This document shows positions 6,800 through 33,444 of a DNA stretch of 64,000 nucleotides, one piece after another. The stretch covers positions 4,057,001 to 4,121,000 of the forward strand of contig NZ_CP034783.1 in assembly GCF_006094435.1 (NCBI RefSeq), in the 5' to 3' direction. The DNA comes from Pseudomonas sp. MPC6. GTDB taxonomy: Bacteria > Pseudomonadota > Gammaproteobacteria > Pseudomonadales > Pseudomonadaceae. Within the stretch, counting starts at the first letter, position 1; every line of letters starts with the position of its first letter. The position numbers and the translations under genes were made by a program. The notes under the pieces are model-generated. The model was not told the origin of the DNA. It did no database searches and was given only the letters and a program-made list of their open reading frames with translations.

Positions 6800-6816
6800 A
6801 TCGTCCGACAAGACTA
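6800..6816 (-). promoter_or_regulatory. putative operator A, TAGTC-N6-GACGAT
   Basis: Reads TAGTCTTGTCGGACGAT towards the OYE operon, in the OYE/MFS divergent intergenic region. One of eight similar sites between 6.8 and 33.4 kb; the half-sites GTC and GAC with exact 6-nt spacing are invariant. Confidence 0.6.
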
Positions 6817-6892
6817 GGTTCGCTATCGACAAGGCGATCCCGATACCGCATCGTTTGTACGCACGTAGGAGACCAGCCGGGGACGACAAAGA

Positions 6893-6909
6893 TGGTCTGA
6901 ACGGACGAT
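6893..6909 (+). promoter_or_regulatory. putative operator B upstream of MFS gene
   Basis: TGGTCTGAACGGACGAT. The last AT begins an ATG at 6908 that opens the longest MFS frame, but this ATG lacks a ribosome site. The GTG at 6971, exactly 62 nt past the operator, has GGGAG 8 nt before it. Sites at 24103 and 33428 have the same arrangement. Confidence 0.6.
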
Positions 6910-6970
6910 GAAAAAAAACCGTGACGAGCCGAACATCGCGGCAACTAGAACAAAACCGGGAGCACCCGCA

Positions 6971-8296
6971 GTGAACCAATCCCCCGTGACATGGCGAACG
7001 CATTACGCGCTGTTCGTGCTCGCCAGCATCTATGTGTTCAACTACATCGACCGCCAGTTGATGGCGATCCTGATCGAGCCGGTGAAGCTCGAATTCGGCA
7101 TTTCCGATACCGGCATCGGCTTGCTGTCGGGGGTGACCTTCGCCGTGTTCTACACCGTGTTCGGCTTCCCGCTGGGGCGCCTGTCGGACCGCATCGGGCG
7201 CAAGCCAGTGATTGCCTTCAGCTGCATCGCCTGGAGCCTGATGACCATGCTCTGCGGCATGGCCGGCAACTTTTTGACCCTGGTGCTGGCGCGAGTCGGC
7301 GTGGCGGTTGGCGAGGCCGGCGGCACGGCGCCGTCGGTGGCCATGGTCTCGGATTTGTACCCGGCGAACCGCCGTTCCACTGCCCTGTCGGTGCTGATGC
7401 TCGGTTCCAGCCTGGGGGCGATAGTTGGCCTGGGCCTGGGCGGCTGGATTGCCCAGCACCACGGCTGGCGCTACGCCTTCTTGCTGATAGGCGCACCCGG
7501 CATCTTCCTTGGCCTGCTACTGCTGCTGACCGTGCGGACGCCCAAGCGCGCAGTGCCGCTGGGCAACGTCGCGGCGCCACAGGATGGCTGGCTCAAGACT
7601 CTGGTCGAGCTGTTTCGCATGCCCTCGTTCCTGTGCCTGGTACTCACCGGCGGTTCGGCGGCGATTGCCGGCTACGCCATCGGCACCTGGAGCCCGAGCT
7701 TCCTGATCCGTTCCCACGGCCTCAACCTGCAAGAGGCCGGATTTCTGGTGGGCGTAGTGGGCGGCATCGGGTCGACTATCGGCACCCTGGTATGCGGCAT
7801 GCTCACCGACCGCATGGCGCGGCGTGATGTCGGCTGGCAAATCGGTGTGCCGTTGCTGGGTACGCTGATCAGCATTCCCTTCGCCCTGGCGTACTTCCTC
7901 TGGCCCCAGGGCACGGCGTTCCATATCGGCAGCATCGCCGTGCCGCAAGCGTTCCTGTTCTACAGCGCCTTCGGTTTCTTCGGGGTGTGGTGGGCAACGC
8001 CGTGCCTGAGCGCCATTACCCACCTGTTCCCATCCACGCGACTGGCCCAGGCCACGGCGATTTTCGTCATGTCCATGACCCTGCTGGGTGTCGGTGTCGG
8101 GCCGCTGTTCGTAGGCATGCTCAGTGACTTCTTCGTGCCGACCCTGGGCAGTGAATCCCTGCGCTATGCCCTGGCTTCGTCGGTGTCAATGCTGGTGCTG
8201 GCCAGCGTATTCCTGACCCTGGCGCTGCCGCGTTACCGCCAACACATGAAGAGCCCCGCCCCGCGGTCCTCACCGAACCAGGCCGTGACTGCCTGA
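6971..8296 (+). CDS. MFS transporter (spinster-like/aromatic-acid-type)
   Basis: 441-aa inner-membrane protein with about 12 hydrophobic segments. Early motifs are NYIDRQLMAILIEPVK (TM1) and a cytoplasmic loop 2-3 signature GFPLGRLSDRIGRKP, the MFS A-motif. I prefer the GTG at 6971 (GGGAG, 8-nt spacing) over the in-frame ATG at 6908, which lies inside an operator dyad and would add a polar 21-residue tail. It resembles the second MFS protein at 34486-35820, including the NYIDRQ/DNFVGRQ TM1 and the DxGIGL[IL]SGxxFA segment. It diverges from the OYE operon under neighbouring operators, so it probably imports the island substrate or exports an intermediate. Substrate not determinable. Confidence 0.9.
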   Translation: MNQSPVTWRTHYALFVLASIYVFNYIDRQLMAILIEPVKLEFGISDTGIGLLSGVTFAVFYTVFGFPLGRLSDRIGRKPVIAFSCIAWSLMTMLCGMAGNFLTLVLARVGVAVGEAGGTAPSVAMVSDLYPANRRSTALSVLMLGSSLGAIVGLGLGGWIAQHHGWRYAFLLIGAPGIFLGLLLLLTVRTPKRAVPLGNVAAPQDGWLKTLVELFRMPSFLCLVLTGGSAAIAGYAIGTWSPSFLIRSHGLNLQEAGFLVGVVGGIGSTIGTLVCGMLTDRMARRDVGWQIGVPLLGTLISIPFALAYFLWPQGTAFHIGSIAVPQAFLFYSAFGFFGVWWATPCLSAITHLFPSTRLAQATAIFVMSMTLLGVGVGPLFVGMLSDFFVPTLGSESLRYALASSVSMLVLASVFLTLALPRYRQHMKSPAPRSSPNQAVTA

Positions 8297-8317
8297 CCCT
8301 CCTCCCCATACCACCGC

Positions 8318-8353
8318 GCCGCTGGAAACCTGTCAGGTTCCAGCGGCTTTTTT
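8318..8353 (+). terminator. intrinsic terminator after MFS gene
   Basis: GCCGCTGGAA and TTCCAGCGGC form the outer stem, with CCTG/CAGG continuing it inward, followed by a T-run at 8348-8353. It lies 22 bp after the MFS stop. The next gene begins at 8366, so that gene is read only by read-through or its own promoter. Confidence 0.85.
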
Positions 8354-8365
8354 ATGAGGATCACC

Positions 8366-8800
8366 ATGAGTACCAGCGCCGTACAGATCAGCAACCTGCT
8401 CTACCGTTACGCCGAATGCCTGGACAGCGGCCAACTGGTCGAGGCCGCCGAGCTGTTTCGTCATGCCCGCATCAAGGTGCAAAGCCAGGGCGACTTCCTT
8501 GATCACACCGCCCTGCTGGACATCTGGCAACGACGAATCAAGCTCTACCCCTGCGGCACGCCCCGCACCCGACACGTCATCAGCAACCCCATCATCGACA
8601 TCGACGAAGCCGCAGGAACCGCGACGGTTCGCTCCTGCTACACCGTGCTTCAGGCCACCGACACCCTGCCCCTGCAACCCATCGCCGCCGGGCGTTACCT
8701 CGACGAGTTCGAGCATGCCGACGGGGTGTGGCGGTTCAGCTTTCGTGATTATTCGCAGCTGGAAATGATGGGGGACCTGACGGGGCATTTGTTGATGTAG
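8366..8800 (+). CDS. SnoaL-like (NTF2-fold) small protein
   Basis: 144 aa. Start at ATG 8366, chosen because GAGGA lies 5-6 nt upstream; an in-frame ATG at 8354 would add four residues. The pattern is that of SnoaL_4/aromatic-dioxygenase-beta-like cone-fold proteins: an N-terminal helix QISNLLYRYAECLDSG, then AAELFRHARI, a conserved RHVISNPIIDID strand, and a C-terminal DGVWRFSFRDYSQLEM strand. In steroid clusters such proteins act as isomerases, hydratases or accessory subunits. No catalytic residue assignment can be made from the sequence. It follows the MFS gene after a terminator, within the catabolic island, on the plus strand. Confidence 0.75.
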   Translation: MSTSAVQISNLLYRYAECLDSGQLVEAAELFRHARIKVQSQGDFLDHTALLDIWQRRIKLYPCGTPRTRHVISNPIIDIDEAAGTATVRSCYTVLQATDTLPLQPIAAGRYLDEFEHADGVWRFSFRDYSQLEMMGDLTGHLLM

Positions 8801-9010
8801 GCGCAATGGTATCGCCTGGATCGTGATGCTCAGGAAGGCAGGGCCCAGACGCTGGCCCGATTGTTCCAGACTCCGTCCTTCGTATGGCGGGTGCTCACTG
8901 GCAGTACAGATTCAACGATTGTTCTTTGCAGGAGAGGGCCAGGTTGGCCCACTCCCTTTGAGTCACAATAAATAAATCGTTTTGAAATCAGCTCGTCCGA
9001 ACTGTCAGGC

Positions 9011-10594
9011 CTAACGCTGCGCTGACTTGAGTTGGCTGCGCACCTGGACCAGGCCGCGGGTGGTCCCTACATAGAGCGAGCCGTCAGGGCCGATCGACAT
9101 CGAGGCCCAGTTATTGTCAAAGACCTTGCCTCGTCCTGTAGGGATCTTGATGACCTGTTTGCCCGTACGGAAATCGAGGCCGACGACCGACCAGTCCTGG
9201 GTGCCTTGGGGGCCTTGGTCAAAACTGTAGTAATAGGCGATGCCGTTACTTGCGGACAGCTTGGCAACCGACGAAGGCGCCTTGAGCGGCGATGTCCAGA
9301 CCGTGTCGCAGCCGCTTTCGTCTGCACGGATGTCGACCCTGACCACGCCACCGGTAATCGCGTCCCAATCCTTTTGCGTATGAGCGCTTTTGTATCCCGA
9401 ATTGTTTTCGAGCAGGATCGAATGCCCCCAACCGATCATCGAGTTGTCGGTGGCGCTGTTGCCGGCGGTGAACACGGGAACCCGGCAGATTTCGCGCTGC
9501 TCACCGGGCTTCAGATCACCACGGCGTAATACGACGATGTTGATGCGCGGATTGGCGTTGTCGGCGAAAGTGATGTAGCGCTCACCGAGCAGCGTCGGGG
9601 TGGTCCCGCTACCCTGGTTGATCGTGCCGACCTTGCGCTCGTCACCCCGGTCATAGGTGTGCCGCCACAGTTGCCGCGGCATACCGTCCTGGTCTGCGGC
9701 AAAGGCATATTGCGCATGGTCGGAGAGTACATAGACGGCGCGGCTATCCATCGCGACGGCGTTCTGGATTTCTTCGTCCGGCAGGCGCAGTTGCTGGACC
9801 TGCCCAGTCTCGGGATTGAGCGTCCCCACGCGACCAAAGCGCGTGAGCCACCAGTAATGCCCCTTGGTGTCGGGCATGACGGTGGTGATCATGTCGCAGG
9901 CGCCGGACGGGAACCAGTTGTCGTAGTTCTGGCAGTCGTGTGGGACATGAGGTCGCATGTCCCATTCCTTCTCGACGACGAAGCGCCACTGGCCACCTTC
10001 CTCATGCAGGGCAATGCGCTGGATCATCTGACGGCTGTCGCCGAGAACAATACGATCCTGATTATCGAGGAACAGGTAGGCGCCGCCCGAGGAGTCATTC
10101 ATCATCAGGCTCATGTCGCGATGGATCAGCGCCTGGAATGAACTTGGGCGCAGAGGCAAATCGTAATAAGCCAGGGCCTTGAGCGTGGTCGGATCAATCA
10201 GGACGATGCGAAAGCCGGTGAGCCCGCCGCACATCGAGATGATCTTGCCGTCGCTGCGGTACACATAAGTCGCGCACTGGCGCGGCAGCCAATTACCTCC
10301 CTGTCGCGTACGGACTTCGAGGGCCGTACCCATCGGCCCACTGGCTGGATGGGTATCTGACTGAAAGCCGTCGCCATGCATCGTGCCTTGCCCGAGCGGC
10401 GCAAGATAAGGGTGAGCTTCTACCGCACCCGGAACCGACGCTGGCTTGAAGCTGTTATCCCATTGGATGGCAGCGGAGGATTGGCCCTCGATAGGGACTG
10501 CTTCCATTCGCTCGCGGCTGGCGATTGGCAAGAGTGCAAAGGGCAATGCAAGGATGGCCGCCGCAGCCGGGGTTATGATCCAGCGTTTTTTCAT
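9011..10594 (-). CDS. secreted beta-propeller-like protein of unknown function
   Basis: 527 aa. The N-terminus MKKRWIITPAAAAILALPFALLPIAS is a signal peptide or membrane anchor. The body has repeated strand units resembling PQQ/YVTN-type propellers, such as GRVGTLNPETGQVQQLRL, GVVRVDI and GLDFRTGKQVIKIPTGRGKVFDN, ending SIGPDGSLYVGTTRGLVQV. Several Cys residues (CATY, SMCGG, HDCQNYDNWFPSGACD, EICR, SGCDTVW) suggest periplasmic disulfides. I do not recognise a named family. It is downstream of the secreted MBL protein at 10719-12200 on the same strand, with a long hairpin between them, so both may depend on the operator at 12332. A periplasmic binding or dehydrogenase-like role in substrate capture is only a guess. 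Confidence 0.7.
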   Translation of the reverse strand: MKKRWIITPAAAAILALPFALLPIASRERMEAVPIEGQSSAAIQWDNSFKPASVPGAVEAHPYLAPLGQGTMHGDGFQSDTHPASGPMGTALEVRTRQGGNWLPRQCATYVYRSDGKIISMCGGLTGFRIVLIDPTTLKALAYYDLPLRPSSFQALIHRDMSLMMNDSSGGAYLFLDNQDRIVLGDSRQMIQRIALHEEGGQWRFVVEKEWDMRPHVPHDCQNYDNWFPSGACDMITTVMPDTKGHYWWLTRFGRVGTLNPETGQVQQLRLPDEEIQNAVAMDSRAVYVLSDHAQYAFAADQDGMPRQLWRHTYDRGDERKVGTINQGSGTTPTLLGERYITFADNANPRINIVVLRRGDLKPGEQREICRVPVFTAGNSATDNSMIGWGHSILLENNSGYKSAHTQKDWDAITGGVVRVDIRADESGCDTVWTSPLKAPSSVAKLSASNGIAYYYSFDQGPQGTQDWSVVGLDFRTGKQVIKIPTGRGKVFDNNWASMSIGPDGSLYVGTTRGLVQVRSQLKSAQR

Positions 10595-10623
10595 TATTAT
10601 TTTCGCTCACGTAACAATTGGAG

Positions 10624-10685
10624 GGGCTGCCAAAAAAAGAGCCAGCACCGACTGGCAATTCTGTCAGGTGGTTTTTGGCCAGCCC
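10624..10685. repeat. long interrupted hairpin between secreted MBL and propeller genes
   Basis: GGGCTGCCAAAAA (10624-10636) pairs with TTTTTGG-C-CAGCCC (10672-10685). An inner GCCAG/CTGGC stem lies inside. It is in the 124-bp gap between two co-directional genes and could attenuate transcription or stabilise the upstream message. Confidence 0.5.
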
Positions 10686-10718
10686 TACGTGGTGTATCAG
10701 TGTTTAAACCGAAGTGTG

Positions 10719-12200
10719 TTAGTGGGAGGCGGTGTCAAGGCTTGGTTGTTTATCCAGATGCTTAAGGCGTTGTTTAAGGTTGAGCATGTGTTCCAGATAA
10801 ACAGTCAACTCTTGAGTGGGGATGCCGGGTGCAATGCGTTTGGAGTATGCATCCAGGGACACCTGCAGGACGTCTTTATTGTCCGGGGCCGCAAAGTAAG
10901 CCATGTCTGCGAGCTTGCACGCCAAGGCCGGATTAGTCTCCTGCAGTGCTCGAATGCGTGTGGTCACCTTATCGATCCCGCCGCTCAGTTCGACCATTTC
11001 ACTGCCAAAGGCCGATAGTGGGGCTGGGGCCCAATCCGAAGGCACGCCATTCCACCAGCCGCCGTCTTCTTTCAAGACCATTTTTGCAACGTCTTGAAAA
11101 CGGTTGTAGGTTTCCGCCATGTCCGTGCGCCCTTGCAGCTTTTCAGGCAGCTTGACGGAAGCCACGATTTCATCGGGACGTTTATCTGCATTCAGTCCGT
11201 CGGCCACTTGGGTGACAGCCGAATCCAACATGTCGGCAGCGGCCAGTAACTTGTCTTGAGCTTCAGCGGCAGAGATCATTGCCGCGCCGTGCATCGGTAA
11301 TACCCATTCCGGCCTGGCGGCGGCCATATCGCGTAATGCCTGTGCCCACTCGGCCACATGGCGCTGACGGCGCTTGCCATTGCCGGCATTGAGCAGGAAG
11401 GGTTGCCAATAGTCGGCGCTGACCACCACTTTGCGTGAAGGCACGCTCACCCATAGTTGATCGGCAGACTCCCCGCGGGCCTGGGTCAATATGAAGTCTT
11501 CACCGCCAATGCTCAGGGTTTTGGTTCCGTGGAATGTTTCAGTGGGCAGGATGGTGTCTTCCATGCGCCGTGGAACATCCCGCGGGTCCTGGTTGTTAAG
11601 GCGGACGATGGAAAAATTGACCAGTTTGGTGTCAATCGCCAATTCGGAAAGATAAGTGTCAGTGGAAATGATGCGCGGCTTTTCCCCGGCCGCGAGTAGC
11701 GCCCAGGCACCAAACGCATGGTCGGCATGGTGATGGGTAATAATAATGGTGTTAACGGGTTTATTGCTGATCTTGCGCAGTGCTTCAACCAGGGCCGGGC
11801 CAGCCGGTGCATAACCGGTATCGACCAGAACCAGCCCCTCGGTTGTTTCGAATACCGCGACATTGACAAAGGGAAAACGCAATAACCAGGTCCCCTTGCC
11901 CTGTTGCTCAATAGTCAGCATCGAGCGCGCATCGTCGATCGCGGCCTGGTTGGTTCTACTGTACATATGATTGGCAATAGCCGCGGACACAGGGCCGCCA
12001 AACCCGGCATTTGGATTGGATCGCAGGGTGTTCAATACGTTGGGATATTGCTTCATGAGTTCGGTGCGCAACTCAAACCGTTCAACGGCTTTAGGATCTG
12101 GCGTTGCGGCGGAGGTCGGCACTTGAGTCGCGGCGTTCAGCCCCCCCACGACAAAAGTCAGTCCCATTGAAAGTAGTGCTTTTTTATAATTGTTATGCAT
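10719..12200 (-). CDS. secreted metallo-beta-lactamase-fold hydrolase, alkylsulfatase-like
   Basis: 493 aa. Start set at ATG 12200, which gives a clean signal peptide (NNYKKALLSMGLTFVVGGLNAA). The MBL metal motif THHHADHAFG is near residue 160, followed by a long insertion and LPMHGAAM. The later segment WWNGVPSDWAPAPLSAFGSEMV matches the alkyl-sulfatase dimerisation region of SdsA1/BDS1-like enzymes. Such enzymes cleave sulfate esters in the periplasm. Sulfated steroids or bile acids would be logical substrates here but this is inference. The canonical alkylsulfatase THxHxDHxGG motif is altered (A-F-G). The gene is the head of a two-gene minus-strand unit, with an operator dyad about 130 bp upstream. 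Confidence 0.8.
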   Translation of the reverse strand: MHNNYKKALLSMGLTFVVGGLNAATQVPTSAATPDPKAVERFELRTELMKQYPNVLNTLRSNPNAGFGGPVSAAIANHMYSRTNQAAIDDARSMLTIEQQGKGTWLLRFPFVNVAVFETTEGLVLVDTGYAPAGPALVEALRKISNKPVNTIIITHHHADHAFGAWALLAAGEKPRIISTDTYLSELAIDTKLVNFSIVRLNNQDPRDVPRRMEDTILPTETFHGTKTLSIGGEDFILTQARGESADQLWVSVPSRKVVVSADYWQPFLLNAGNGKRRQRHVAEWAQALRDMAAARPEWVLPMHGAAMISAAEAQDKLLAAADMLDSAVTQVADGLNADKRPDEIVASVKLPEKLQGRTDMAETYNRFQDVAKMVLKEDGGWWNGVPSDWAPAPLSAFGSEMVELSGGIDKVTTRIRALQETNPALACKLADMAYFAAPDNKDVLQVSLDAYSKRIAPGIPTQELTVYLEHMLNLKQRLKHLDKQPSLDTASH

Positions 12201-12331
12201 GTTTATAAATAACCTTTGGTTGGTGAAGGCAATCAAAAACGGCTGGAGCTCATGGCTTGCAGATACAGACGTTGCACTGGCGATACGACAGTGGGTTTGG
12301 GCTTTAATATAGTCAGTTGAGGGTGGTCAGC

Positions 12332-12348
12332 ATCGTCTATTGGGACTA
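12332..12348 (-). promoter_or_regulatory. putative operator C upstream of secreted MBL gene
   Basis: Reads TAGTCCCAATAGACGAT on the minus strand: TAGTC and GACGAT kept exactly, with a different 6-nt centre from the other sites. The rest of the gap 12201-12508 holds only the terminator at 12449. Confidence 0.6.
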
Positions 12349-12448
12349 AGTGTTTTGCGCGCAAAGTTTCATCGCCCGCCAGGATCTGATGCATGGCAAA
12401 AGCCACCTGGACCGTTCTTGTTTCTGTATTTCCAGGAATTACGTGAAC

Positions 12449-12482
12449 AAAAAAGGCCTCGCCGTTATCCGGCGAGGCCTTT
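12449..12482 (-). terminator. intrinsic terminator of the DUF1329 gene
   Basis: AAAGGCCTCGCCG and CGGCGAGGCCTTT form a perfect 13-bp stem with a 4-nt loop. On the minus strand it is followed by a T-run (complement of the A-tract at 12449-12454), 27 bp after the DUF1329 stop. It insulates the MBL/propeller unit from DUF1329 transcription. Confidence 0.9.
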
Positions 12483-12508
12483 ACTTGTAGCGGGGTGTTG
12501 CTAAGGCA

Positions 12509-13891
12509 TTAGCGCCCTATCGCACGTGCCGCATCCGCGGTGTACTGGTCCTTGGTGAACTTGCCTTCGTTGAGGATCGGGCCCTTCTTCGACTCGTTGG
12601 TCATGCCGTAGCCTGTGTACTGGCCGGAGTTCAGGTCCATGAAGAACTGAGAACCGGCCTGCCAGCTGCTCATGTCAGGGTGGTAGTAGTAGTTGACCAT
12701 GGCGTGTTTCCACAGCTGCCCACGGGCATCGTAGTTGTCGGCCATGACCGAATGCCAGGTGTCTTCGTCAATGAACAACACCCGCTTGCCATAGACATGG
12801 CGATAGCCTTCCTTCAAGTCGGCCTCCAGCACCCACACGCGACGCAACTCATAACGCATAAAGTCAGGGTTGGGATGGTTGGGCGTCAGGATGTCGGCGT
12901 ATTTGACGGTCGCAGCGTTGGGTTTGAACGCGTTGGCCGGGATGTAGATCTCGCGCTTGCCGATCAGTTTCCAGTTGTAGCGCTCTGGTGAACCGTTGAA
13001 CAAGCGGTCTTCGTCAATGGTCATGGTGCCGTTGGTGCCGATCATCGGCTGATCGAAACCGTAACCCGGCAGTTGCCGTACGCGTCGGGTCGACGGGCTG
13101 TAGCTCCAGGCCTGACGCCCCTCGGTGGCGAAGTTGTAGGGTTCATGGGAAATGCTGATGGTGCCGTTGTCGCGGGCCGGTTTGAGGGTCATGTTGTTGC
13201 TCATGGCCGAAATCTTGTCTTCGGTCCTGACGTCTTCTGTCGGTGAGTTGCCAATTCCCATGTTACGTGCGTAGGCACGCCCCCAGCCAATACTGCCGTT
13301 GGGCAGGACCGAGGCCAGGTCGGTGGTTTTTTCCTCGGTGTAGGCACGTGCCGGCACTAGCTGATTCCACAACACTTCCATGCCGTTTTTGGGGATTGGG
13401 AACGGCAACTGGCCGATCCCGGTGAAACCTCCACCGTCGTTCACCAGCTTGGCATGCTGGGCATTATCCACCGCGCGGCGGCAGACATAATCGGGGTAGC
13501 GGAAATCCCGGTGACCTGGATAGATGTTCATCTTGTAGGTGGTTGGATATTTCTTCAGCAGGGCCTTCTGCCCTTCGGTCAGGTGCGACTCATACTGGCT
13601 CATGTTCTGCGCGGTAATCACCAGGGTTGGCTTTTCGGCAGCGTAAGGGTCAACCGGGTGGTCGCCAGAGAACTTCACATGATTCCAGCCTGGCACTTCA
13701 CCCAGGTATTTGCCGGTGTACGGCGGAATGGTGCCCTCGGCGTTGCCGGCTTGCTCGGCGCCGACACAGGTCAGCTCCTTGCCCAGTTTGGCGGCTTCCT
13801 GAGGTGACACCGCGGCGTGCGCAGCACCCATCAGCCCGCTATTGGCTGTGACTGCGACCGCGAGCATGAGACCTGTTCTTGTTATTTTCAT
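12509..13891 (-). CDS. DUF1329 family periplasmic/outer-membrane-associated protein
   Basis: 460 aa with signal peptide MKITRTGLMLAVAVTANSGL ending AHAA. It has the family's usual length. Recognisable DUF1329 (LolB-like fold) stretches include the N-terminal SPQEAAKLGKELTCVGAE, AWSYSPSTRRVRQLPGYGFD, and the C-terminal LPNxxDL-equivalent ending TKDQYTADAARAIGR. DUF1329 genes co-occur with DUF1302 and hydrophobic-compound catabolism; the partner here is at 936-2603. A role in carrying the hydrophobic substrate between the membranes is suggested by the fold and context. It has its own operator (13960) 68 nt before the start and its own terminator, so it is monocistronic and probably strongly expressed. 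Confidence 0.88.
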   Translation of the reverse strand: MKITRTGLMLAVAVTANSGLMGAAHAAVSPQEAAKLGKELTCVGAEQAGNAEGTIPPYTGKYLGEVPGWNHVKFSGDHPVDPYAAEKPTLVITAQNMSQYESHLTEGQKALLKKYPTTYKMNIYPGHRDFRYPDYVCRRAVDNAQHAKLVNDGGGFTGIGQLPFPIPKNGMEVLWNQLVPARAYTEEKTTDLASVLPNGSIGWGRAYARNMGIGNSPTEDVRTEDKISAMSNNMTLKPARDNGTISISHEPYNFATEGRQAWSYSPSTRRVRQLPGYGFDQPMIGTNGTMTIDEDRLFNGSPERYNWKLIGKREIYIPANAFKPNAATVKYADILTPNHPNPDFMRYELRRVWVLEADLKEGYRHVYGKRVLFIDEDTWHSVMADNYDARGQLWKHAMVNYYYHPDMSSWQAGSQFFMDLNSGQYTGYGMTNESKKGPILNEGKFTKDQYTADAARAIGR

Positions 13892-13959
13892 GTAATGCCT
13901 CCTACGCTGATAAGGCTTTGTTGGTATGGACCCATTGTTCGTGTTCTGCCGGCAGCAAC

Positions 13960-13976
13960 ATCGTCCGGAAAGACTA
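13960..13976 (-). promoter_or_regulatory. putative operator D upstream of DUF1329
   Basis: Reads TAGTCTTTCCGGACGAT towards the DUF1329 gene, 68 nt before its start. It lies in the 93-bp gap after the acyl-CoA synthetase stop, so DUF1329 likely has its own promoter. Confidence 0.6.
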
Positions 13977-13984
13977 AGCAGGCG

Positions 13985-22222: not shown

Positions 22223-22234
22223 GGTGAATGGCTC

Positions 22235-23259: not shown

Positions 23260-24048
23260 TCAGGTGGGCAGAACCTGCGCGGCATCGAGAAATGCCGGGC
23301 GTTCACCACCGCCATGCAGCAACAGGTTGCAACCGCTGGCGTAACTGGCCAGCGGCGATGCGATGTAGAGACAGGCGTTGGCGATGTCTTCGGCCACCGC
23401 CATGCGCGCGGCCGGAATGCCGGCCGCGACGGCGGCGATACCGGCCTCGGAGCCGTAGTGCAGGTGCGACTGCTCGGTCTGTACCAGCCCCGGGCTGACC
23501 GTGACCACCCGCACCTTGGGCCCCCACTCCACCGCCAGCGATTGCACCAGCGCCAGCACCCCGGCCTTGGCCGCGCCGTAAGCGGCGGTGCCTGGCGAGG
23601 AACGCAGCGCACTGATGCTGCCGATAAAGACGATGCAACCGCCCTGCACCTGGGCCTGCATCAGCCGGTTGGCGTGCTGGGCGACGTTGAGCGGCGCGAT
23701 CAGGTTCAGACCGATGATGCTTTCATGAAACCTGGGCGACGCCGTGGCTGCGTCGGCGGAAGGGCTGCCGCCGGCGTTGTTGACCACCACGTCGAGGCGC
23801 CCGAAGTCGCGCTCGATGGTGGCGAACAGGCGTTGCAGGGAATCGTGGTCCCGCACATCCGCGGCGATGAAGGTCGCGCGCTTGCCACCCTGCGCCGGCA
23901 CCTGTTCAGGTTCGCGCCGGGCACAGACGATCACCCGTGCGTTCGCGGCCAGGAACCCCAGCGCAATACCGGCGCCGATGCCCTTGGTGCCACCGGTGAC
24001 CAGCACCACCTTGCCGCTGTAATCAAGACCCGAATGCAGCTCCATCAT
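23260..24048 (-). CDS. short-chain dehydrogenase/reductase
   Basis: 262 aa; AAGGAG precedes two adjacent ATGs at 24048 and 24045, and either may start the protein. Classical SDR motifs: GGTKGIGAGIA (TGxxxGxG) near residue 17, NNAGG near 90, and a catalytic Y-x-x-x-K as YGAAKAG near 155, with SLAVEWGPKVRVVTVSPGLVQTE after it. It heads the long minus-strand operon with acyl-CoA dehydrogenase, ChsH-like and aldolase genes, so it may oxidise a side-chain hydroxyl or beta-hydroxyacyl-CoA, or act as a hydroxysteroid dehydrogenase. The operator at 24103 is 54 bp upstream and is shared with the divergent enoyl-CoA hydratase gene. Confidence 0.87.
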   Translation of the reverse strand: MMELHSGLDYSGKVVLVTGGTKGIGAGIALGFLAANARVIVCARREPEQVPAQGGKRATFIAADVRDHDSLQRLFATIERDFGRLDVVVNNAGGSPSADAATASPRFHESIIGLNLIAPLNVAQHANRLMQAQVQGGCIVFIGSISALRSSPGTAAYGAAKAGVLALVQSLAVEWGPKVRVVTVSPGLVQTEQSHLHYGSEAGIAAVAAGIPAARMAVAEDIANACLYIASPLASYASGCNLLLHGGGERPAFLDAAQVLPT

Positions 24049-24102
24049 GTGCTCCTTTTCTACTGACAAGGGTCACTCTAGGGACGAACCGCAGGCCAAA
24101 CT

Positions 24103-24119
24103 ACGTCTGAACGGACGAT
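24103..24119 (+). promoter_or_regulatory. putative operator E in SDR/enoyl-CoA hydratase divergent region
   Basis: ACGTCTGAACGGACGAT. Fifteen consecutive bases, GTCTGAACGGACGAT plus the following GAAAA, match operator B at 6893. It ends 62 nt before ATG 24181. As a near-palindrome it may control both divergent operons. Confidence 0.6.
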
Positions 24120-24180
24120 GAAAATTCAACCGCCTGAACAGGACACTGGTGGCCATTTACACGTTGTCAGGTCTTCGAGA

Positions 24181-24972
24181 ATGCTCATGTCCGACTCATC
24201 CGCTGCACCGGTTCTGCTCGAACGCCCACTGCCCGGCGTGGCCCTGCTGCGGCTCAACCGCCCGCAGGCGACCAACGCCTTGAGCCTGGAATTGCAGGCG
24301 CTGCTGTCGCGTTATTTCAGTGAACTTGCGATCGACCCCGAGGTGCGTTGCATCGTGCTGACCGGCGGTGACAAGGTGTTCGCCGCCGGTGGCGACATCA
24401 ACAGCATGGCCGGGGTCGGCGCCATCGATATCTACAAGCGCCACACCGAACGGGTCTGGGGGCCGATCCAGCACTGCCCGAAACCGGTGATTGCGGCAAT
24501 TTGCGGTTATGCCTATGGCGGCGGCTGTGAGCTGGCAATGCATGCCGACCTGATTGTCGCCGGCCGCAGCGCGCGCTTCTGCCAACCGGAAATCCGCATC
24601 GGCATCATGCCCGGCATCGGTGGCACCCAGCGGCTGGTGCGCGCGGTGGGCAAGGTCAAGGCAATGCGCATGGCGCTCACCGGCCAGCCGATCAGCGCCG
24701 AGGAAGCCTGGGTCGCCGGACTGATCAGTGACCTGGTCGACGATGACCAGGTACAAGCCCACGCCCTGGAGCTGGCGCGTGTCATCGCCGCCATGCCGGC
24801 CCTGGCCGCCGAGCAGATCAAGGAAGTGATCCTGGCGGGCATGGACGCGCCACTGGAAGCAGGCCTGGCGCTGGAGCGCAAGGCCAATGCATTGTTGTTC
24901 GCCTCACGGGATCAGAAGGAAGGCATGCAGGCGTTTATCGAGAAACGCCCGGCGCAGTTTGAGGGGTATTAA
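24181..24972 (+). CDS. enoyl-CoA hydratase/isomerase (crotonase family)
   Basis: 263 aa. The longest frame opens at ATG 24118 inside operator E. I prefer ATG 24181 (or 24187), where the crotonase fold begins (VLLERPLPGVALLRLNRPQATNAL). Oxyanion-hole segments FAAGGDINSM near residue 60 and GYAYGGGCELAMHADL near 110. Both Glu positions used by true hydratases appear: CELAM, and PEIRIGIMPGIGGTQRLVRAVG. A hydratase acting on a side-chain or ring-derived enoyl-CoA is likely. It stands alone on the plus strand, divergent from the side-chain operon and converging on the DUF6124 gene. Confidence 0.88.
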   Translation: MLMSDSSAAPVLLERPLPGVALLRLNRPQATNALSLELQALLSRYFSELAIDPEVRCIVLTGGDKVFAAGGDINSMAGVGAIDIYKRHTERVWGPIQHCPKPVIAAICGYAYGGGCELAMHADLIVAGRSARFCQPEIRIGIMPGIGGTQRLVRAVGKVKAMRMALTGQPISAEEAWVAGLISDLVDDDQVQAHALELARVIAAMPALAAEQIKEVILAGMDAPLEAGLALERKANALLFASRDQKEGMQAFIEKRPAQFEGY

Positions 24973-24999
24973 CATCTCCCGAACGAAAACGTTGATCTC

Positions 25000-25347
25000 C
25001 TATTCAACCCGATCAATCCGATCCAACGCCCGGTTCACCGCCAGTTCGCCCAGCATAATGACCTGGGCAATCCCCAACAGGGCGTTGCGACTCGTCCCTT
25101 CCATATGATCCGCCAGATCCAGCGCCATGACATTGGCCGAAGCCAGCGACTCACAGGCGTGGGCCAGCAGGGTTTCGGTATCGAGTTCCGGGTTGACGAT
25201 GAACATGGTGCAAAGCTTGCGCGGAGTGGACCGGATGTCGGCGGCAGAGGGAATGCGTTCGGAGGGTGGGTGGGAATTGTTGGAGTCGATGGTTTCTGAG
25301 GGCGTTGCCGGATCGGTGTCCGGCGGGTTTGGTGTCTGCTTGATCAT
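25000..25347 (-). CDS. DUF6124 family protein
   Basis: 115 aa small acidic protein. The N-terminal 45 residues are Pro/Ser/Thr-rich and low complexity. The conserved part, CTMFIVNPELDTETLLAHACESLASANVMALDLADHMEG followed by RNALLGIAQVIMLGELAVNRALD, is the helical pattern of the Pseudomonas-restricted DUF6124/DUF3077 proteins, of unknown function. The start codon follows AAGGGAAG at normal spacing. Upstream lies an unusually structured leader with a 15-bp perfect inverted repeat (25401-25481). It breaks the catabolic island between the side-chain operon and the flavoprotein operon and is probably not part of the pathway. Confidence 0.75.
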   Translation of the reverse strand: MIKQTPNPPDTDPATPSETIDSNNSHPPSERIPSAADIRSTPRKLCTMFIVNPELDTETLLAHACESLASANVMALDLADHMEGTSRNALLGIAQVIMLGELAVNRALDRIDRVE

Positions 25348-25400
25348 GAATACTTCCCTTAATTAGCTGGGCCGCACCATCTCGCTACTACACGAAAGGG

Positions 25401-25481
25401 TGGCAGCTGTGCGCAAGTTAGTAGACCGGCAAGGGAAAGCAAAAACCGGCGCGCCCGAGGACGCCATGCGCACAGCTGCCA
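25401..25481 (-). promoter_or_regulatory. structured leader of DUF6124 gene: 15-bp inverted repeat
   Basis: TGGCAGCTGTGCGCA (25401-25415) and TGCGCACAGCTGCCA (25467-25481) are perfect inverted copies separated by 51 nt. An inner CCGG pair and flanking CTACTA/TAGTAG words lie around them. It is 54 bp upstream of the DUF6124 start and could be a cis-acting RNA or a protein-binding dyad. Confidence 0.5.
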
Positions 25482-25867
25482 TCAAGTGCAGGCGGATACC
25501 TGACTGATGATGCTCATGCGACCGCTTTAACCTTGGCCGGGCTACTAAACCCGATCACTGACCATCAGTGACGCGAATCAAGTTACCGAGCAGCCCCTGG
25601 GCGCACAAGCCGGCGGATTCTGGCTTAACCGTAGGCAACGACGCAAGGTGCTGTGGCCTTCGGGAAGTGACGTGAAGGCTTTCTTACAAACACTCGGAAG
25701 CGTCCTACACATCCATCAGAAACGCCCTATTTCCACCTCGACCGACTTCGTAAAAGCTTGCGAGCGTTTGCACGCTGCGGTCTGTCTTTGTGACCGCGTT
25801 ATCGTTCTTCGCCGGCAAGCCTGGCTCCTACAGGGCGGGGCGCGGTGGAATGGGGTGGCAACGGCCG
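25482..25867. other. non-coding gap with short dyad and single REP half-site
   Basis: No convincing gene. It holds a small dyad TCACTG-ACCAT-CAGTGA (25555-25571) and a lone REP-like half (CTTCGCCGGCAAGCCTGGCT, 25807 onward) shortly after the SDR stop on the minus strand. Confidence 0.55.
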
Positions 25868-26650
25868 CTAGATACTCATCACCATCTGCCCGCTATCAAT
25901 GCGCAACTCGACACCATTGATCGCCCGGGCTTCATCGCTCGCCAGGAACAGCACGCTGGCCGCCACGTCCTCGGGCCGGCACATGCGGTTCATCGGGTCG
26001 CTGTCGATGGTCATGCGGTCGGGGTCGACGCCTGCGGGGAGGCTGCCACGGGTCATGTCGGTGAGCACGCCATCCGGGTGCAGCGTGTTGCAGCGGATGC
26101 GGTATCTGCGCCGCCGGCAAAGCGCCGCCACCGAACGCGACAATGCCGCCACCGCGCCCTTGGAGGCGCTGTAAGCCAGGTAATCGTCACGCCCGGCCAG
26201 GGCCGCGACGGACGATAGGTTGATGATCGAACCACCGCTGCCCTTCATCAACGCGATGCCTTCGCGACAGCCCAGAAACACACTGTCGGCATTCACCCGC
26301 ATCACCTGTTGCCACGCCTGCAGACTGGTCTCTTCAATCGAGCCGGCGATCAGGATGCCGGCATTGTTGACCAGGATATCCAGACGCCCGTAGCGCTCGC
26401 GCACATGGTCGATGACCTGGCGCCACGCGTCTTCACTGCTGACGTCGTGGCGGATAAAGGCTGCAGCCGGCCCGATTTCAGCCGCCAGGGCCTGGCCTGC
26501 CTCGACGTCCAGGTCGCTGATCAGCACCTGGGCCCCTTCGGCCGCCAGCACCCGCACGCTGGCAGCGCCGATCCCCTTGGCGCCGCCGGTGACCAGCGCG
26601 ACTTTGCCGTGAACCCGGCCGTTCTTGTTGTTTTGATTGAGCGTCATCAT
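25868..26650 (-). CDS. short-chain dehydrogenase, hydroxysteroid-dehydrogenase-like
   Basis: 260 aa. Rossmann motif GGAKGIGAASV near residue 22, DLDVEAG after beta-2 (Asp favours NAD), NNAGIL near 92, catalytic Ser in NLSSVAAL and Y-x-x-x-K as YLAYSASKGAV. The layout matches 3-alpha/20-beta- or 3-beta/17-beta-HSD-like SDRs. It overlaps the upstream flavoprotein gene at ATGATGA. Coupling to a KstD-family flavoprotein suggests it oxidises a ring hydroxyl (for example 3-OH) to the ketone that the flavoprotein then desaturates. Specificity is inferred. Confidence 0.87.
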   Translation of the reverse strand: MMTLNQNNKNGRVHGKVALVTGGAKGIGAASVRVLAAEGAQVLISDLDVEAGQALAAEIGPAAAFIRHDVSSEDAWRQVIDHVRERYGRLDILVNNAGILIAGSIEETSLQAWQQVMRVNADSVFLGCREGIALMKGSGGSIINLSSVAALAGRDDYLAYSASKGAVAALSRSVAALCRRRRYRIRCNTLHPDGVLTDMTRGSLPAGVDPDRMTIDSDPMNRMCRPEDVAASVLFLASDEARAINGVELRIDSGQMVMSI

Positions 26651-28344: not shown

Positions 28345-28352
28345 ACACCCTC

Positions 28353-30062
28353 CTATCGCTGGCTGGCCAAGTGGTTGGCGGCGACATAAGCAAAGGTCAT
28401 CGCCGGCCCCAGTGTGCCGCCCGCGCCTGGATAGCTGGTGCCCATCACCGACGCCGAGCAGTTGCCGATCGCGTACAGGCCAGCGATGGCGGCGCCGTCT
28501 TCGCGGACCACTTGCGCATGTTCGTTGGTCAGCAGGCCGCCCTTGGTGCCGATGTCCCCGGCATCAAGACGCATGGCGTAGTACGCGCCTTTGCGCAATG
28601 GCGCCAGGCACGGGTTGGGCTTGATATTGCTGTCGCCGTAATAACGGTCGAATACGTTGCCGCCGCGCCCGAAGTCCGGATCCGTGCCCGTGCGCGCATA
28701 CTCGTTGACCTTGACCACGGTGGCTTCGAGACCGGCGGCATCGACGCCGATCTGCTTGGCCAGCCCGGCCAGGGTGTCGTCCTTCCAGTACAGGGTGTTC
28801 AGCCATTCCTTGCGCAAGCGGCTGTCGGGCATGATCTGGCCTGGCATCAACGGCCCCATCGCGTAGTTGAAACGGAAATGGCCATCGAAAATCACCCAGG
28901 CCGGCACCGACTTGCCACCCGTGAGCCCGTTGTCGCGGTACATCGCATCGACGAACTCCAGATACGGCGCGGCCTCGTTGACGAAGCGCCGGCCCAGGCT
29001 GTTGACCACGATGGCGCCGGGGAACGCGCGCTCGGCGAAGATCCCCCGGGGTTTTTCCTCGCCCGGTACGGCGATCGTCGGCGCCCACCAGGCCCAATCC
29101 ATCAATGCGGTGGCCGCCCCCTGAGCCAGCCCGGCCTCCAGCGCGGCACCGGTGTTGTTGCCCGGCGGTGTCGCACTCCAGGCCATGCGGGTCGGTTGCG
29201 GCAAGTATTTTTCACGCAGGGCCTGGTTCTGTTCAAAACCACCGGACGCCAGGATCACCCCGTGACGCGCGTGCAGTTGCACCTCGGCACCGTTGCGCCG
29301 CACGCTGACGCCGCTGACCCGGCCGTCCTTGGTGAGCAAGCCGGCAAAATCGGTGTTGAGCCAGAGCGGCACGTTGCGGTCCATCAGCGAGCGCCGCAGC
29401 GACGCCACCAGCGAGCTGCCCAGGGACGCCCGGCGGTCGATCTTGCTTTTGCGGCGCCATTTGAAATCGAGTTTGTAACGCAGCATCAGGCCCATGATCA
29501 GCAGGCGCCAGCCAAAACCACGCGCCATGACCTTGTGCGCATCCCGGGCGGTCCAGGCGATGCAGCCCATGAGCAAGGTCGACGGCGAAGGTTTACGCAG
29601 GTTGTCCAGTTCGTCGCCCAACAGGCTGGTATCGAAGAACTCCGGATCCAGGGTTCTGCCGCCGGGCAGCGCGCCCGGCAGGTGCGGGTAATAGTCGGGG
29701 TATTTGGCGGCCACCGCGTAGCGGACCCGACTGGTCTGGGCAAGCTCTTCGATCATCTTCGGCGCATTGTCCAGGTAGGTGCGCAGCCGGGTTTCATCGA
29801 CATGTTCGCCCGCCGCGGCTTGCAGATAACGCAAGGCTGTTGCGTAAGTGTCATTGCCGTTCAGCTTGGCGAAATAGTGGTTGTTGGGGATCCAGATACC
29901 GCCGCCGGAGATCGCCGAGGTGCCGCCGTACTTGTCGCTTTTTTCCACGATCAGCACACTGAAGCCGTGATCGGCGAGGAACACCGCCGACGTCATTGCA
30001 CCTGCACCCGAACCAACGACAATCACATCGTAGTGGGTCTGAGACTGAACTTGAGCCGTCAT
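28353..30062 (-). CDS. 3-ketosteroid delta-1-dehydrogenase-like flavoprotein
   Basis: 569 aa. I start at ATG 30062 (MTAQVQSQTHYDVIVVGSG); the longer frame begins at a TTG inside operator F. FAD motif VIVVGSGAGAMTSA near residue 12, KYGGTSAISGGGIWIPNN near 45, GVILASGGFEQN in the middle. The C-terminus NCSASVMGTSYPGAGGTLGPAMTFAYVAAN carries the Y-P-G-A-G sequence, where KstD has its Tyr and Gly that hold the 3-keto group. KstD inserts the 1(2) double bond in ring A before ring opening. This supports a steroid-type substrate. It heads the 30062-25868 operon. Confidence 0.87.
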   Translation of the reverse strand: MTAQVQSQTHYDVIVVGSGAGAMTSAVFLADHGFSVLIVEKSDKYGGTSAISGGGIWIPNNHYFAKLNGNDTYATALRYLQAAAGEHVDETRLRTYLDNAPKMIEELAQTSRVRYAVAAKYPDYYPHLPGALPGGRTLDPEFFDTSLLGDELDNLRKPSPSTLLMGCIAWTARDAHKVMARGFGWRLLIMGLMLRYKLDFKWRRKSKIDRRASLGSSLVASLRRSLMDRNVPLWLNTDFAGLLTKDGRVSGVSVRRNGAEVQLHARHGVILASGGFEQNQALREKYLPQPTRMAWSATPPGNNTGAALEAGLAQGAATALMDWAWWAPTIAVPGEEKPRGIFAERAFPGAIVVNSLGRRFVNEAAPYLEFVDAMYRDNGLTGGKSVPAWVIFDGHFRFNYAMGPLMPGQIMPDSRLRKEWLNTLYWKDDTLAGLAKQIGVDAAGLEATVVKVNEYARTGTDPDFGRGGNVFDRYYGDSNIKPNPCLAPLRKGAYYAMRLDAGDIGTKGGLLTNEHAQVVREDGAAIAGLYAIGNCSASVMGTSYPGAGGTLGPAMTFAYVAANHLASQR

Positions 30063-30162
30063 TGTTGTTATGCCATTAGCTGAGGTCAGAGATAACCGCC
30101 GACGACGCTGTGGGAGCGCTGGCGGAGTGCATCCCATGATCGGGGCTGCACTGGCCGGGCTC

Positions 30163-30179
30163 ATCGTCAAAGCGGACTA
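30163..30179 (-). promoter_or_regulatory. putative operator F upstream of KstD-like operon
   Basis: Reads TAGTCCGCTTTGACGAT towards the flavoprotein operon, 100 nt before ATG 30062, in the short gap after the amidase gene. Confidence 0.6.
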
Positions 30180-30249
30180 GGAAGCCGGCCCGATGCCGGT
30201 TGCTCATGAAAGCGGCGAACAACCGGCCGAAAGGGCCAGGCAAGCGCTG

Positions 30250-31845: not shown

Positions 31846-31873
31846 AGCGATTGTCGCGCCCTGTCGATTATTG

Positions 31874-33307
31874 TTATGCGGTCACGTTGGCCAGCATGGC
31901 CGCCAGAAAGTGTTCGCCATACGGCGGCAAGAGCCCCCACTCGCGACGCGGGTCATGCTCCGGCGCCTTGAACACCGTGCGCTGGTGGCTGAACTCGAGA
32001 AATCCTTCGTGACCATGGTAATGGCCCATGCCCGAGGCGCCGACTCCGCCAAACGGCGCATCGTGCATCGCCGCGTGCATCATCACATCGTTGACGGTCA
32101 CCCCGCCGGACACGGTGCGCTCCAGCACATAGCGCTGCTGCTCGGGGTCTTTGCCGAAGTAATACAGCGCCAGCGGGCGGGGACGACCATTGATGTCGTC
32201 AATGACCTGATCGAGGTGTTCATAGGTGAGCACGACCATGGCGGGACCGAAAATTTCTTCACCCATGATCACGCTGTCCGGCGCCGGGTCGACCACCACG
32301 CGCAGGGGCCGGCGCCGGTCCTCGGCATTCGGCGCCAGGGGTTCGGGCAGGCACTCGACACGTGCGCCGCGGGCCTGGGCGTCCAGCACGTAACCTTCGA
32401 CCCGGTCCAGGTGCCGCTGGTTGACCACCGCCACCACGTCCGGGTTGCCGGCCACCGCAGGATTGAGTTCGCTGTAAGTGGCGCGCAGGGCTTCAAGGAA
32501 GGGTTCCAGCAGCGCCTTGGGCACGTACACCAGATCCGGACTGATGCAGATTTGCCCGCCATTGCAGGCTTTCCCTACGGCGATGCTGAAGGCGGCTTTT
32601 TTCAGGTCGGCGCTGGCGGAGACGATGACCGGCGACTTGCCGCCCAGCTCCAGCGTCACCGGCACCAGGTTCAGTGCGGCGTTGCGCATGACCAGCCGCC
32701 CCGTCGCGGTACTGCCGGTGTACACCAGGTGGTCAAACGGTTGGGCGCTGAAGGCTTCGGCCAGCTCCACGTCGCCGGTGACGACGCCGATCTCCAGCGG
32801 GTCGAGGTGTTCCGCGAACAGCTGCGCCACCAACTCGGCCGTCCGTGGAACCACGTCCGACGGCTTGAGGATGGCCCGGTTGCCCGCGGCCAGCACCGAG
32901 GCCAAGGGGCTGAACAGGGTAAACAAAGGCGCGTTCCAGGTACCGAGAATGCCCACCGTGCCCTTGGGCTGGTGCATCACCCACGCCTTGGCGCCGAGCT
33001 GATCGTAGGGCGCAAAAGGCGCACGTGGATCATCCTGCATCCAGTCCTGCAGATGGTCGCGCGCATATTTGAGCGAGGCCAGGGCGCCCAGCACGTCATT
33101 CATCAACGAGAAACCGGCAGGCCGACCGCCGAAATCCAGGTCGATCGCCTCGGTCAACACGCCATGGTGGCGCACCAACAGATCGATGACTTGCTGGAGT
33201 CGGCGTCGGCGGGTGTCGGCGCTCACCGCACCGGCGCTGGCGAATGCGCTTTTTTGCCGGGATAACAGACTGGTGAGTCCTTGGACGGATGATATGACTG
33301 AACTCAT
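31874..33307 (-). CDS. aldehyde dehydrogenase (coniferyl-aldehyde-dehydrogenase-like)
   Basis: 477 aa; start at ATG 33307 with AAGGGG just upstream, rejecting the longer frame that runs through operator G. Motifs: LGTWNAPLFTLFSPLASVLAAGN, VYTGSTATGRLVM, ELGGKSPVIVSASADLKKAA (general base Glu), and the catalytic Cys in CNGGQICISPDLVYVP. Sequence style is that of CalB-type class-3 ALDHs, which take bulky or membrane-associated aldehydes. In aldolytic bile-acid side-chain degradation the first aldolase yields a C22 aldehyde that an ALDH (Sad) oxidises, a fitting role here. It is in an operon with the amidase gene. Confidence 0.88.
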   Translation of the reverse strand: MSSVISSVQGLTSLLSRQKSAFASAGAVSADTRRRRLQQVIDLLVRHHGVLTEAIDLDFGGRPAGFSLMNDVLGALASLKYARDHLQDWMQDDPRAPFAPYDQLGAKAWVMHQPKGTVGILGTWNAPLFTLFSPLASVLAAGNRAILKPSDVVPRTAELVAQLFAEHLDPLEIGVVTGDVELAEAFSAQPFDHLVYTGSTATGRLVMRNAALNLVPVTLELGGKSPVIVSASADLKKAAFSIAVGKACNGGQICISPDLVYVPKALLEPFLEALRATYSELNPAVAGNPDVVAVVNQRHLDRVEGYVLDAQARGARVECLPEPLAPNAEDRRRPLRVVVDPAPDSVIMGEEIFGPAMVVLTYEHLDQVIDDINGRPRPLALYYFGKDPEQQRYVLERTVSGGVTVNDVMMHAAMHDAPFGGVGASGMGHYHGHEGFLEFSHQRTVFKAPEHDPRREWGLLPPYGEHFLAAMLANVTA

Positions 33308-33393
33308 TCGTGTCCCCTTGCTGGTACTGGCCCAATGGCCGGGAAGCGCCCGATGCGCTTGCCGCCACCCTAGCCGTACACCCCGCGCGACGC

Positions 33394-33411
33394 CTCGTCC
33401 GATCGGACGAG
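33394..33411. promoter_or_regulatory. putative operator G, perfect 18-bp palindrome
   Basis: CTCGTCCGATCGGACGAG, fully palindromic, in the ALDH/flavin-reductase divergent region and 86 nt upstream of the ALDH start. It has the same GTC-N6-GAC frame as the other seven sites and is their most symmetric member. Confidence 0.62.
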
Positions 33412-33427
33412 TAGCGAGCAAATCTGT

Positions 33428-33444
33428 TAGTCCGTTGAGACGAT
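33428..33444 (+). promoter_or_regulatory. putative operator H upstream of flavin reductase
   Basis: TAGTCCGTTGAGACGAT, followed by G, so that ATG 33443 overlaps it as in operators B and E. The preferred start at 33506 is 62 nt beyond its end, the same distance as the other two. Confidence 0.6.

Follow-up and report, generated by a model that had tools for sequence, protein, structure and literature searches.

A conserved dyad at the class II activator position as the probable binding site of TeiR/TesR-like LuxR-type regulators in a predicted steroid catabolic island of Pseudomonas sp. MPC6

Closest to the system analysed here among described regulators are TeiR (strain ATCC 11996) and TesR (strain TA441) of Comamonas testosteroni. 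In Comamonas, TeiR/TesR has been reported to regulate positively, and a P. stutzeri Chol1 mutant lacking one TeiR-like gene showed delays in both cholate degradation and growth (PMC6678751, PMC8399759, the latter as unpublished data); the accessible parts of both papers give no binding site for TeiR/TesR. The steroid cluster of P. stutzeri Chol1 extends over 79 kb (PMC6678751, accessible part) and, according to the accessible part of PMC8399759, contains two TeiR-like genes, as does the MPC6 island described below. We found no published TeiR binding site in the literature searched, in which coverage of subscription papers is limited and a published site may exist. Here we analyse a recurrent dyad in a stretch of 64,000 nucleotides from Pseudomonas sp. 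MPC6 ("the window", positions 4,057,001-4,121,000 of contig NZ_CP034783.1; coordinates marked C4 are those of the contig) and argue that it is very probably the binding site of TeiR/TesR-like LuxR-type activators, with the consensus TAGTCY-N4-RGACGATG.

The lux box and tra box recognised by LuxR and TraR are dyads of about 18-20 bp located near -42.5, which overlap the -35 element and are bound by a GerE-type dimer in the class II arrangement. The MPC6 box shares with them the size of the dyad and its predicted position, but has a different half-site with a GTC/GAC core. The operators of KstR/KstR2 and EdcR resemble the MPC6 box in being palindromic sites that control steroid catabolic clusters, but these proteins are TetR-family repressors, and sequence, position and logic all differ, e.g. 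the EdcR site TnnCnnTACnAnTnGTAnnGnnA overlaps the -10 element (PMC8700777, accessible part).

The window covers part of an island of 64 genes (about C4 4,014,700 to 4,092,800; genes called with our own codon-usage caller), which by its gene content is a steroid/bile-acid catabolic cluster. A Pfam scan of 61 of the 64 proteins at E up to 1e-6 or 1e-5 detected KshA, ChsH2-type proteins, acyl-CoA dehydrogenases, FAD_binding_2 (KstD-like) proteins, flavin reductase, BphC-like dioxygenase, DUF1302/DUF1329 pairs and MFS transporters; the three genes outside the scan appear by eye to be MaoC-like, DUF1302-like and thiolase-like. The first-pass annotation of the window had described a 17-bp dyad, TAGTC-N6-GACGAT, at eight sites that share GTC and GACGA at an invariant spacing. 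We recovered all eight, with GTC-N6-GACGA beginning at 6801 (-), 6895 (+), 12333 (-), 13961 (-), 24105 (+), 30164 (-), 33395/33397 and 33430 (+), and the 33395/33397 site, matched on both strands, is indeed a perfect 18-bp palindrome (CTCGTCCGATCGGACGAG, window 33394-33411). The core of the proposed dyad is real, while the motif itself is longer and asymmetric: the refined consensus is TAGTCY-N4-RGACGATG, with the GACGATG end facing the gene.

In the window, GTC-N6-GACGA is matched 15 times (twice by the palindrome, and six times outside the eight sites), compared with 2.13 (standard deviation 1.31) in shuffled sequences, and none of 100 shuffles reached 15. The genome-wide scan that had been proposed as a check shows that the motif is confined: in the genome of 7.2 Mb, exact TAGTC-N6-GACGATG has 12 matches versus 0 for the reversed control, and all 12 fall within one 78-kb stretch (C4 4,017,414 to 4,095,757). 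Eleven lie ahead of island genes, the other (window 38740-38757) inside a coding sequence. The looser GTC-N6-GACGATG has 88 genome matches versus 4 for the control; 17 of the 88 fit GTCY-N4-RGACGATG, and 12 of these 17 are in the island (counted by eye from the match list). We also scored sequences with a matrix built from 62 sites of other genomes, among them close relatives, and called a box at a score of 9 or more. At a score of at least 11 there are 22 matches in the island (15 of them at 20 or more, two of the 22 inside genes), four in the rest of a 160-kb stretch, including one of 21.6 at C4 4012806, and six in twelve 20-kb control stretches (240 kb in total, best score 17.6). That no site precedes the genes after 35.9 kb in the window holds for intergenic matrix matches scoring 9 or more, none of which was found there; the exact matches at 38740 and 39307 fall within genes, and a weak GTC-N6-GACGA site at 46972, with a matrix score below 9, is intergenic.

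The boxes of the window and the promoters predicted next to them are listed below.

6799..6816, minus strand: predicted activator box TAGTCTTGTCGGACGATG, ahead of the operon headed by the Oxidored_FMN gene 5599-6684 (-)
6773..6778, minus strand: predicted -10 AATCAT, transcription start at about 6766
6893..6910, plus strand: predicted activator box TGGTCTGAACGGACGATG, ahead of the MFS transporter gene 6971-8296 (+)
6931..6936, plus strand: predicted -10 GAACAT, transcription start at about 6943
12331..12348, minus strand: predicted activator box TAGTCCCAATAGACGATG, ahead of the alkylsulfatase-like gene 10719-12200 (-)
12306..12311, minus strand: predicted -10 TATATT, transcription start at about 12299
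13959..13976, minus strand: predicted activator box TAGTCTTTCCGGACGATG, ahead of the DUF1329 gene 12509-13867 (-)
13934..13939, minus strand: predicted -10 AACAAT, transcription start at about 13927
24101..24120, both strands: two-way box, ACGTCTGAACGGACGATG on the plus and the weaker TCGTCCGTTCAGACGTAG on the minus strand, between the ECH gene 24181-24972 (+) and the SDR gene 23260-24048 (-)
24142..24147, plus strand: predicted -10 GACACT, transcription start at about 24154
24075..24080, minus strand: predicted -10 TAGAGT of the divergent promoter, transcription start at about 24068
30162..30179, minus strand: predicted activator box TAGTCCGCTTTGACGATG, ahead of the FAD_binding_2 (3-ketosteroid-dehydrogenase-like) gene 28353-30062 (-)
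30136..30141, minus strand: predicted -10 GATCAT, transcription start at about 30129
33393..33411, minus strand: palindromic box, minus reading TCGTCCGATCGGACGAGG, which fits the aldehyde dehydrogenase operon 31874-33307 (-)
33367..33372, minus strand: predicted -10 TAGGGT, transcription start at about 33360
33428..33445, plus strand: predicted activator box TAGTCCGTTGAGACGATG, ahead of the flavin reductase gene 33512-34489 (+) and the MFS gene that follows
33466..33471, plus strand: predicted -10 AATACT, transcription start at about 33478

In all nine window promoters a -10-like hexamer stands at an offset of 35-37, and the centre of the dyad is 41.5-43.5 from the predicted start (best of three offsets taken in both cases). 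The same geometry is seen in a much broader set: among 83 non-redundant GATG-ended sites from 117 loci the hexamer has an offset of 36 in 40 and of 37 in 22, whereas each of the other 42 offsets tested has it in 0-5 sites. A sigma70-type -10 hexamer thus follows the box after 20-21 nt in 62 of the 83 sites, compared with at most 10 in three-offset windows elsewhere. Base composition was analysed for 188 sites in 119 loci, reduced to 74 by dropping pairs with at least 62% identity over 77 nt. In columns free of the search pattern, T occupies position -2 in 69 of the 74 sites and A or C position -1 in 54 and 15, respectively, followed downstream by A at 37 (46 sites), T at 41 (44) and A at 48 (37), with little conservation between the box and the hexamer at 36-41. 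The conserved second element is a sigma70-like TANNNT, and there is no TTGACA-like conservation in the free columns 16-18 (columns 13-15 are fixed to ATG by the search pattern). With the -10-like hexamer at fixed spacing, the centre of the dyad lies about 42.5 bp before the probable start; relative to the predicted starts, the box therefore sits at the position of class II LuxR-type activators, overlapping the place of the -35 element. Two further ideas about the motif were dropped: that TAGTC is the -10 of an extracytoplasmic-function (ECF) promoter is incompatible with the conserved TANNNT hexamer 20-21 nt after the box, and a preference for TA in the distal half of one-sided versus TC in that of two-sided boxes found no support (Fisher p = 0.54).

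The four boxes at window 30162-30179 and 33428-33445 and at C4 4045534 and 4045685 form two pairs, each with one shared 18-bp sequence, N4 spacer included (TAGTCCGCTTTGACGATG in one pair, TAGTCCGTTGAGACGATG in the other). Both sequences are also present in further Pseudomonas genomes; selection may thus act on the spacer, or the promoters may have been duplicated.

The first-pass annotation had ascribed the sites to a single regulator, TetR- or MarR-like and absent from the window. A single regulatory system on these promoters is strongly supported, and the island part of the window yielded none of its candidate regulators; the family assignment is not supported. No TetR or MarR gene, and hence none with its own copy of the site, was detected among the scanned genes of the island, to which the survey was limited, and the only regulators recognised there are two paralogous LuxR/GerE-type proteins, a family that accords with the class II position of the box:

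C4 4017465-4018673: paralogue A, 38 kb left of the window
C4 4050470-4051705: paralogue B, 5.3 kb left of the window

Both are encoded alongside genes for KshA_C, ChsH2-like, FAD_binding_2, BphC-like and flavin reductase proteins. The C-terminal GerE helix-turn-helix (HTH) domain (PF00196) of A maps to residues 327-381 (E 8.5e-7). B, which has no Pfam match at 1e-6, is 59% identical to A; the DNA-reading domains agree in 60 of 65 residues (325-389), while the sensor halves have diverged. The only matches of A in the genome at E <= 0.001 are A and B themselves. Among 32 homologues, 22 of the 33 invariant columns fall in the HTH part (329-380).

The resemblance to TeiR and TesR lies in the family, as all are LuxR-type proteins with a GerE HTH, and in the location of A and B inside a steroid cluster. 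TeiR presumably also has a similar length, about 400 residues, and domain layout, and its 2004 abstract reportedly places the GerE and PAS domains at about the same residues as in A. No Comamonas name appears on the 120 listed of 1221 homologues, many of which carry none. The sensor part has no Pfam acyl-homoserine-lactone domain, a difference from LuxR and TraR, and A has no Pfam PAS match at 1e-6, while some homologues bear the database name "PAS domain-containing protein". A search for relatives of solved structure by sequence profile gave none at E <= 0.001. In the structure model (mean pLDDT 70, pTM 0.49) the sensor half has a GAF-like fold and probably a PAS-like fold. Foldseek matches include EL222 and VqmA of Vibrio (6ugl, 6ide), a protein that combines PAS with a GerE HTH.

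In order to relate the box to the regulator, we searched 398 Pseudomonas genomes for the strict box TAGTCY-N5-GACGATG and for matches to A at E <= 1e-60. The regulator is present in 67 genomes, and all 67 carry 3-12 strict boxes (502 in total), in line with the expectation that the motif recurs in related clusters; the lowest counts are 3 in the 73%-complete G223 and 4 in G278. The 331 regulator-negative genomes have 114 strict boxes, i.e. 0.34 per genome (counted by eye): 238 have none, 76 one, 13 two and 4 three. The reversed pattern occurs 67 times in all 398 genomes (0.17 per genome, by eye). Four or more boxes are found in 66 of 67 versus 0 of 331 genomes (Fisher p = 2.8e-75, with genomes that are not independent). 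KshA_C is present in 72 of the 398 genomes, and the six KshA-positive genomes without the regulator contain 0, 0, 0, 0, 0 and 1 strict boxes, with a strong KshA match only in G225. In some of the 67 the regulator is only about 39% identical to A; boxes cluster around such a regulator in those examined (G371, G204 and G277), the first two having also a KshA gene, and G277 possesses two regions apart from each other, both with a TeiR-like homologue and boxes of their own. What these computations show directly is the box with its confinement and orientation, the fixed spacing to the -10 hexamer, the presence of two regulators, and that box and regulator occur together.

Beyond Pseudomonas, in Thauera, Zoogloea, Aromatoleum, Cupriavidus and Burkholderia, the box precedes genes homologous to those of the island in the neighbourhood of such regulators. 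GTCY-N5-GACGATG occurs in 79 of 80 named homologue loci (the best 80 of 96), with 166 matches versus 0 for the reversed control, close relatives being counted more than once. Nine homologue-bearing genomes scanned in full contain 143 matches to GTCY-N4-RGACGATG versus 5 reversed, concentrated in most of them on one or two contigs. These contigs hold, for instance, 16 of the 18 matches of Aromatoleum anaerobium and 9 of the 10 of G725, while the concentration is weaker in Stutzerimonas (6 of 14) and Serpens (5 of 9). On a plasmid of Vibrio alfacsensis, near a regulator homologue with 48% identity, two matches stand ahead of genes for an electron-transfer flavoprotein and an acyl-CoA dehydrogenase, and a symmetric site separates an enoyl-CoA hydratase gene from a divergent SDR gene. 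In 31 loci of other genomes we listed 72 sites (in 26 loci; sites without a further same-strand gene were dropped), 70 of them intergenic; of the 70, 68 lie no more than 250 bp ahead of a gene on the same strand. In 58 cases the next gene is a homologue of an island gene, e.g. an acyl-CoA dehydrogenase-like monooxygenase, a BphC-like dioxygenase, KstD-like or KshA. In searches for more distant regulators, a class-wide draw of 321 genomes yielded one genome with a match besides MPC6, and an order-wide draw of 300 genomes matches in 7, weak in 3 of these. On a plasmid of Sphingobium sp. TomTYG64 (L145, position 14491), a gene annotated as 3-ketosteroid 9-alpha-monooxygenase is closely preceded by a TAGTCTCTTCGGACGAAG site with a score of 19.9, in the vicinity of a LuxR homologue with 39% identity over 74% of the query; the box may thus reach Alphaproteobacteria.

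Within the island we defined operon heads by a strand switch or a same-strand gap above 55 bp. All 12 heads in the six divergent regions have a box, two of them weak (C4 4031193, score 9.6; C4 4081101, 11.9). The earlier statement that the dyad precedes nearly every operon is too strong: 18 of 34 heads have a box (9 of 15 in the window part), and at same-strand gaps only 6 of 22, one of them weak (C4 4055427, score 12.3). Many of these same-strand gaps are probably inside operons.

The position and symmetry of the box, the apparent absence of a recognisable -35 and the constant HTH of its partner point to class II activation by the TeiR-like LuxR proteins. In this model an activator dimer would occupy the dyad, whose centre is about 42.5 bp upstream of the start, and the GACGATG half of the dyad would extend into the place of the -35 element. 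The dimer would recruit sigma70 RNA polymerase to promoters with a modest -10 and no recognisable -35, as at the lux box. Binding would depend on a steroid or catabolite sensed by the putative GAF-like and PAS-like parts of the regulator, so that the box-bearing operons of the island would be switched on together.

Several observations weigh against this interpretation. Sixteen of the 34 gap-defined heads, that of KshA among them, lack a box. No box reaching a score of 9 stands upstream of either luxR gene, and transcription of the two may come from box-driven operons by read-through. Genomes without the regulator still hold 0.34 strict boxes each, about twice the rate of the reversed control (0.17). 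Since 66 of the 67 regulator-positive genomes are also KshA-positive, co-occurrence alone cannot separate the regulator from its neighbour genes, and it is not phylogenetically independent. The shorter core GTCY-N4-RGACGA is less specific (158 matches versus 49 reversed in the 80 loci), five of the 31 loci (L090, L145, L149, L150, L153) gave no listed site, and the 4-kb loci of the distant homologues L133, L140, L141, L128, L135 and L136 contain no box scoring at least 15. A and B are likened to Comamonas TeiR by description rather than by direct sequence comparison, and we infer binding of the box by the regulator, activation and the ligand. Finally, most boxes end in ATG. A start-codon-linked signal was considered and judged unlikely, the called starts being about 50-140 bp downstream; in the window the predicted transcription starts lie 3' of the box ATG, one of the eight boxes has no ATG, and in three of the remaining seven it is out of frame or interrupted by a stop. 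In the other four (6908, 24118, 30164, 33443) it is in an open frame with the downstream gene, which leaves some room for a translational role of the ATG.

It is unlikely, in our view, that a different regulator (TetR, MarR, CRP/FNR or similar), with its gene elsewhere in the genome, uses the box as operator and that the coincidence of the box with TeiR-like proteins only reflects the presence of steroid clusters. The size of the dyad alone fits several families, and the co-occurrence with the regulator is also one with steroid genes (KshA); but no TetR, MarR or CRP gene is among the scanned genes of the island, to which this survey was confined, the two regions of G277 each combine boxes with a TeiR-like homologue, and the KshA-positive genomes without the regulator have one box at most, a thin line of evidence given the single strong KshA match. 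Moreover, a repressor usually overlaps -10/+1, whereas here the -10 stands beyond the box. A further possibility is that the TeiR-like proteins bind the box but repress, with steroids lifting the repression. For one steroid gene of Comamonas, a LuxR-type repressor and repressors of other kinds have been described (PMC6678751, accessible part), but location at -42.5 beside promoters without a recognisable -35 is typical of activators, and with the positive role reported for TeiR/TesR and the delayed cholate degradation of the P. stutzeri Chol1 mutant (accessible parts of PMC6678751 and PMC8399759) we regard repression as very unlikely.

Fixed orientation and fixed spacing to the probable start would be expected also of a promoter element of an alternative (ECF-type) sigma factor. 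This explanation is scarcely plausible: the conserved second element is of the sigma70 type, the upstream element is an 18-bp dyad of which a single copy can fit two divergent genes (window 24101-24120), and no sigma factor is among the scanned island genes. As to chance, or a repeat element spread by duplication, the two identical box pairs could be taken in its favour, but the flanks differ (74 sites are left after the removal of similar pairs), position and orientation relative to genes are fixed, and the 166 matches versus none reversed and the conservation across genera contradict it, which makes its probability close to negligible.

With the box read as the docking site of TeiR-like activators, the on-switch of the pathway becomes readable and testable. 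Together with the fixed promoter geometry, the box can be tested directly with short oligonucleotides and predicts regulon members in new genomes, and it would be a ready sensor element for steroid biosensors. The number of boxes alone, with a limit of at least four, nearly separates Pseudomonas with and without the regulator. According to a statement cited in PMC6895838 (accessible part), tesR-like genes occur only in C. testosteroni; the TeiR-like proteins of the 67 Pseudomonas genomes bear on it, if they are counted as tesR-like. More tentatively, and with chances that we put a little short of even, one box could be what switches on aerobic steroid catabolism in a large part of the Proteobacteria. 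In many Pseudomonas, two activators with nearly the same HTH and diverged sensors would read it, so that two steroid signals (e.g. side-chain and ring intermediates) would converge, through homo- or heterodimers, on the same promoters. In each genome the box would then point out the members of the steroid regulon, those not yet known included.

At the edge of the island, the strong box at C4 4012806 (window -44194; TAATCCGAACAGACGATG, score 21.6) faces the minus strand with no called gene close downstream, and perhaps belongs to a missed gene or is a relic. Three scanned island proteins have no Pfam match: B, the product of L015:8482-9279, and a mid-island protein of 527 aa (window 9011-10594, none at 1e-6). 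A lone DUF6124 gene inside the island (window 25000-25347, minus strand, within 24970-25870) has a boxless upstream gap of 520 bp. Outside the window, between an acyl-CoA dehydrogenase gene and a SnoaL-like gene of the island, we found a tandem array (L015:13681-15059, i.e. C4 4,033,681-4,035,059) with a period of 134 bp, 10.3 copies and 97% matches, the unit of which holds a short repeat of the type GTAGGAGC...GCCGGCAAGC.

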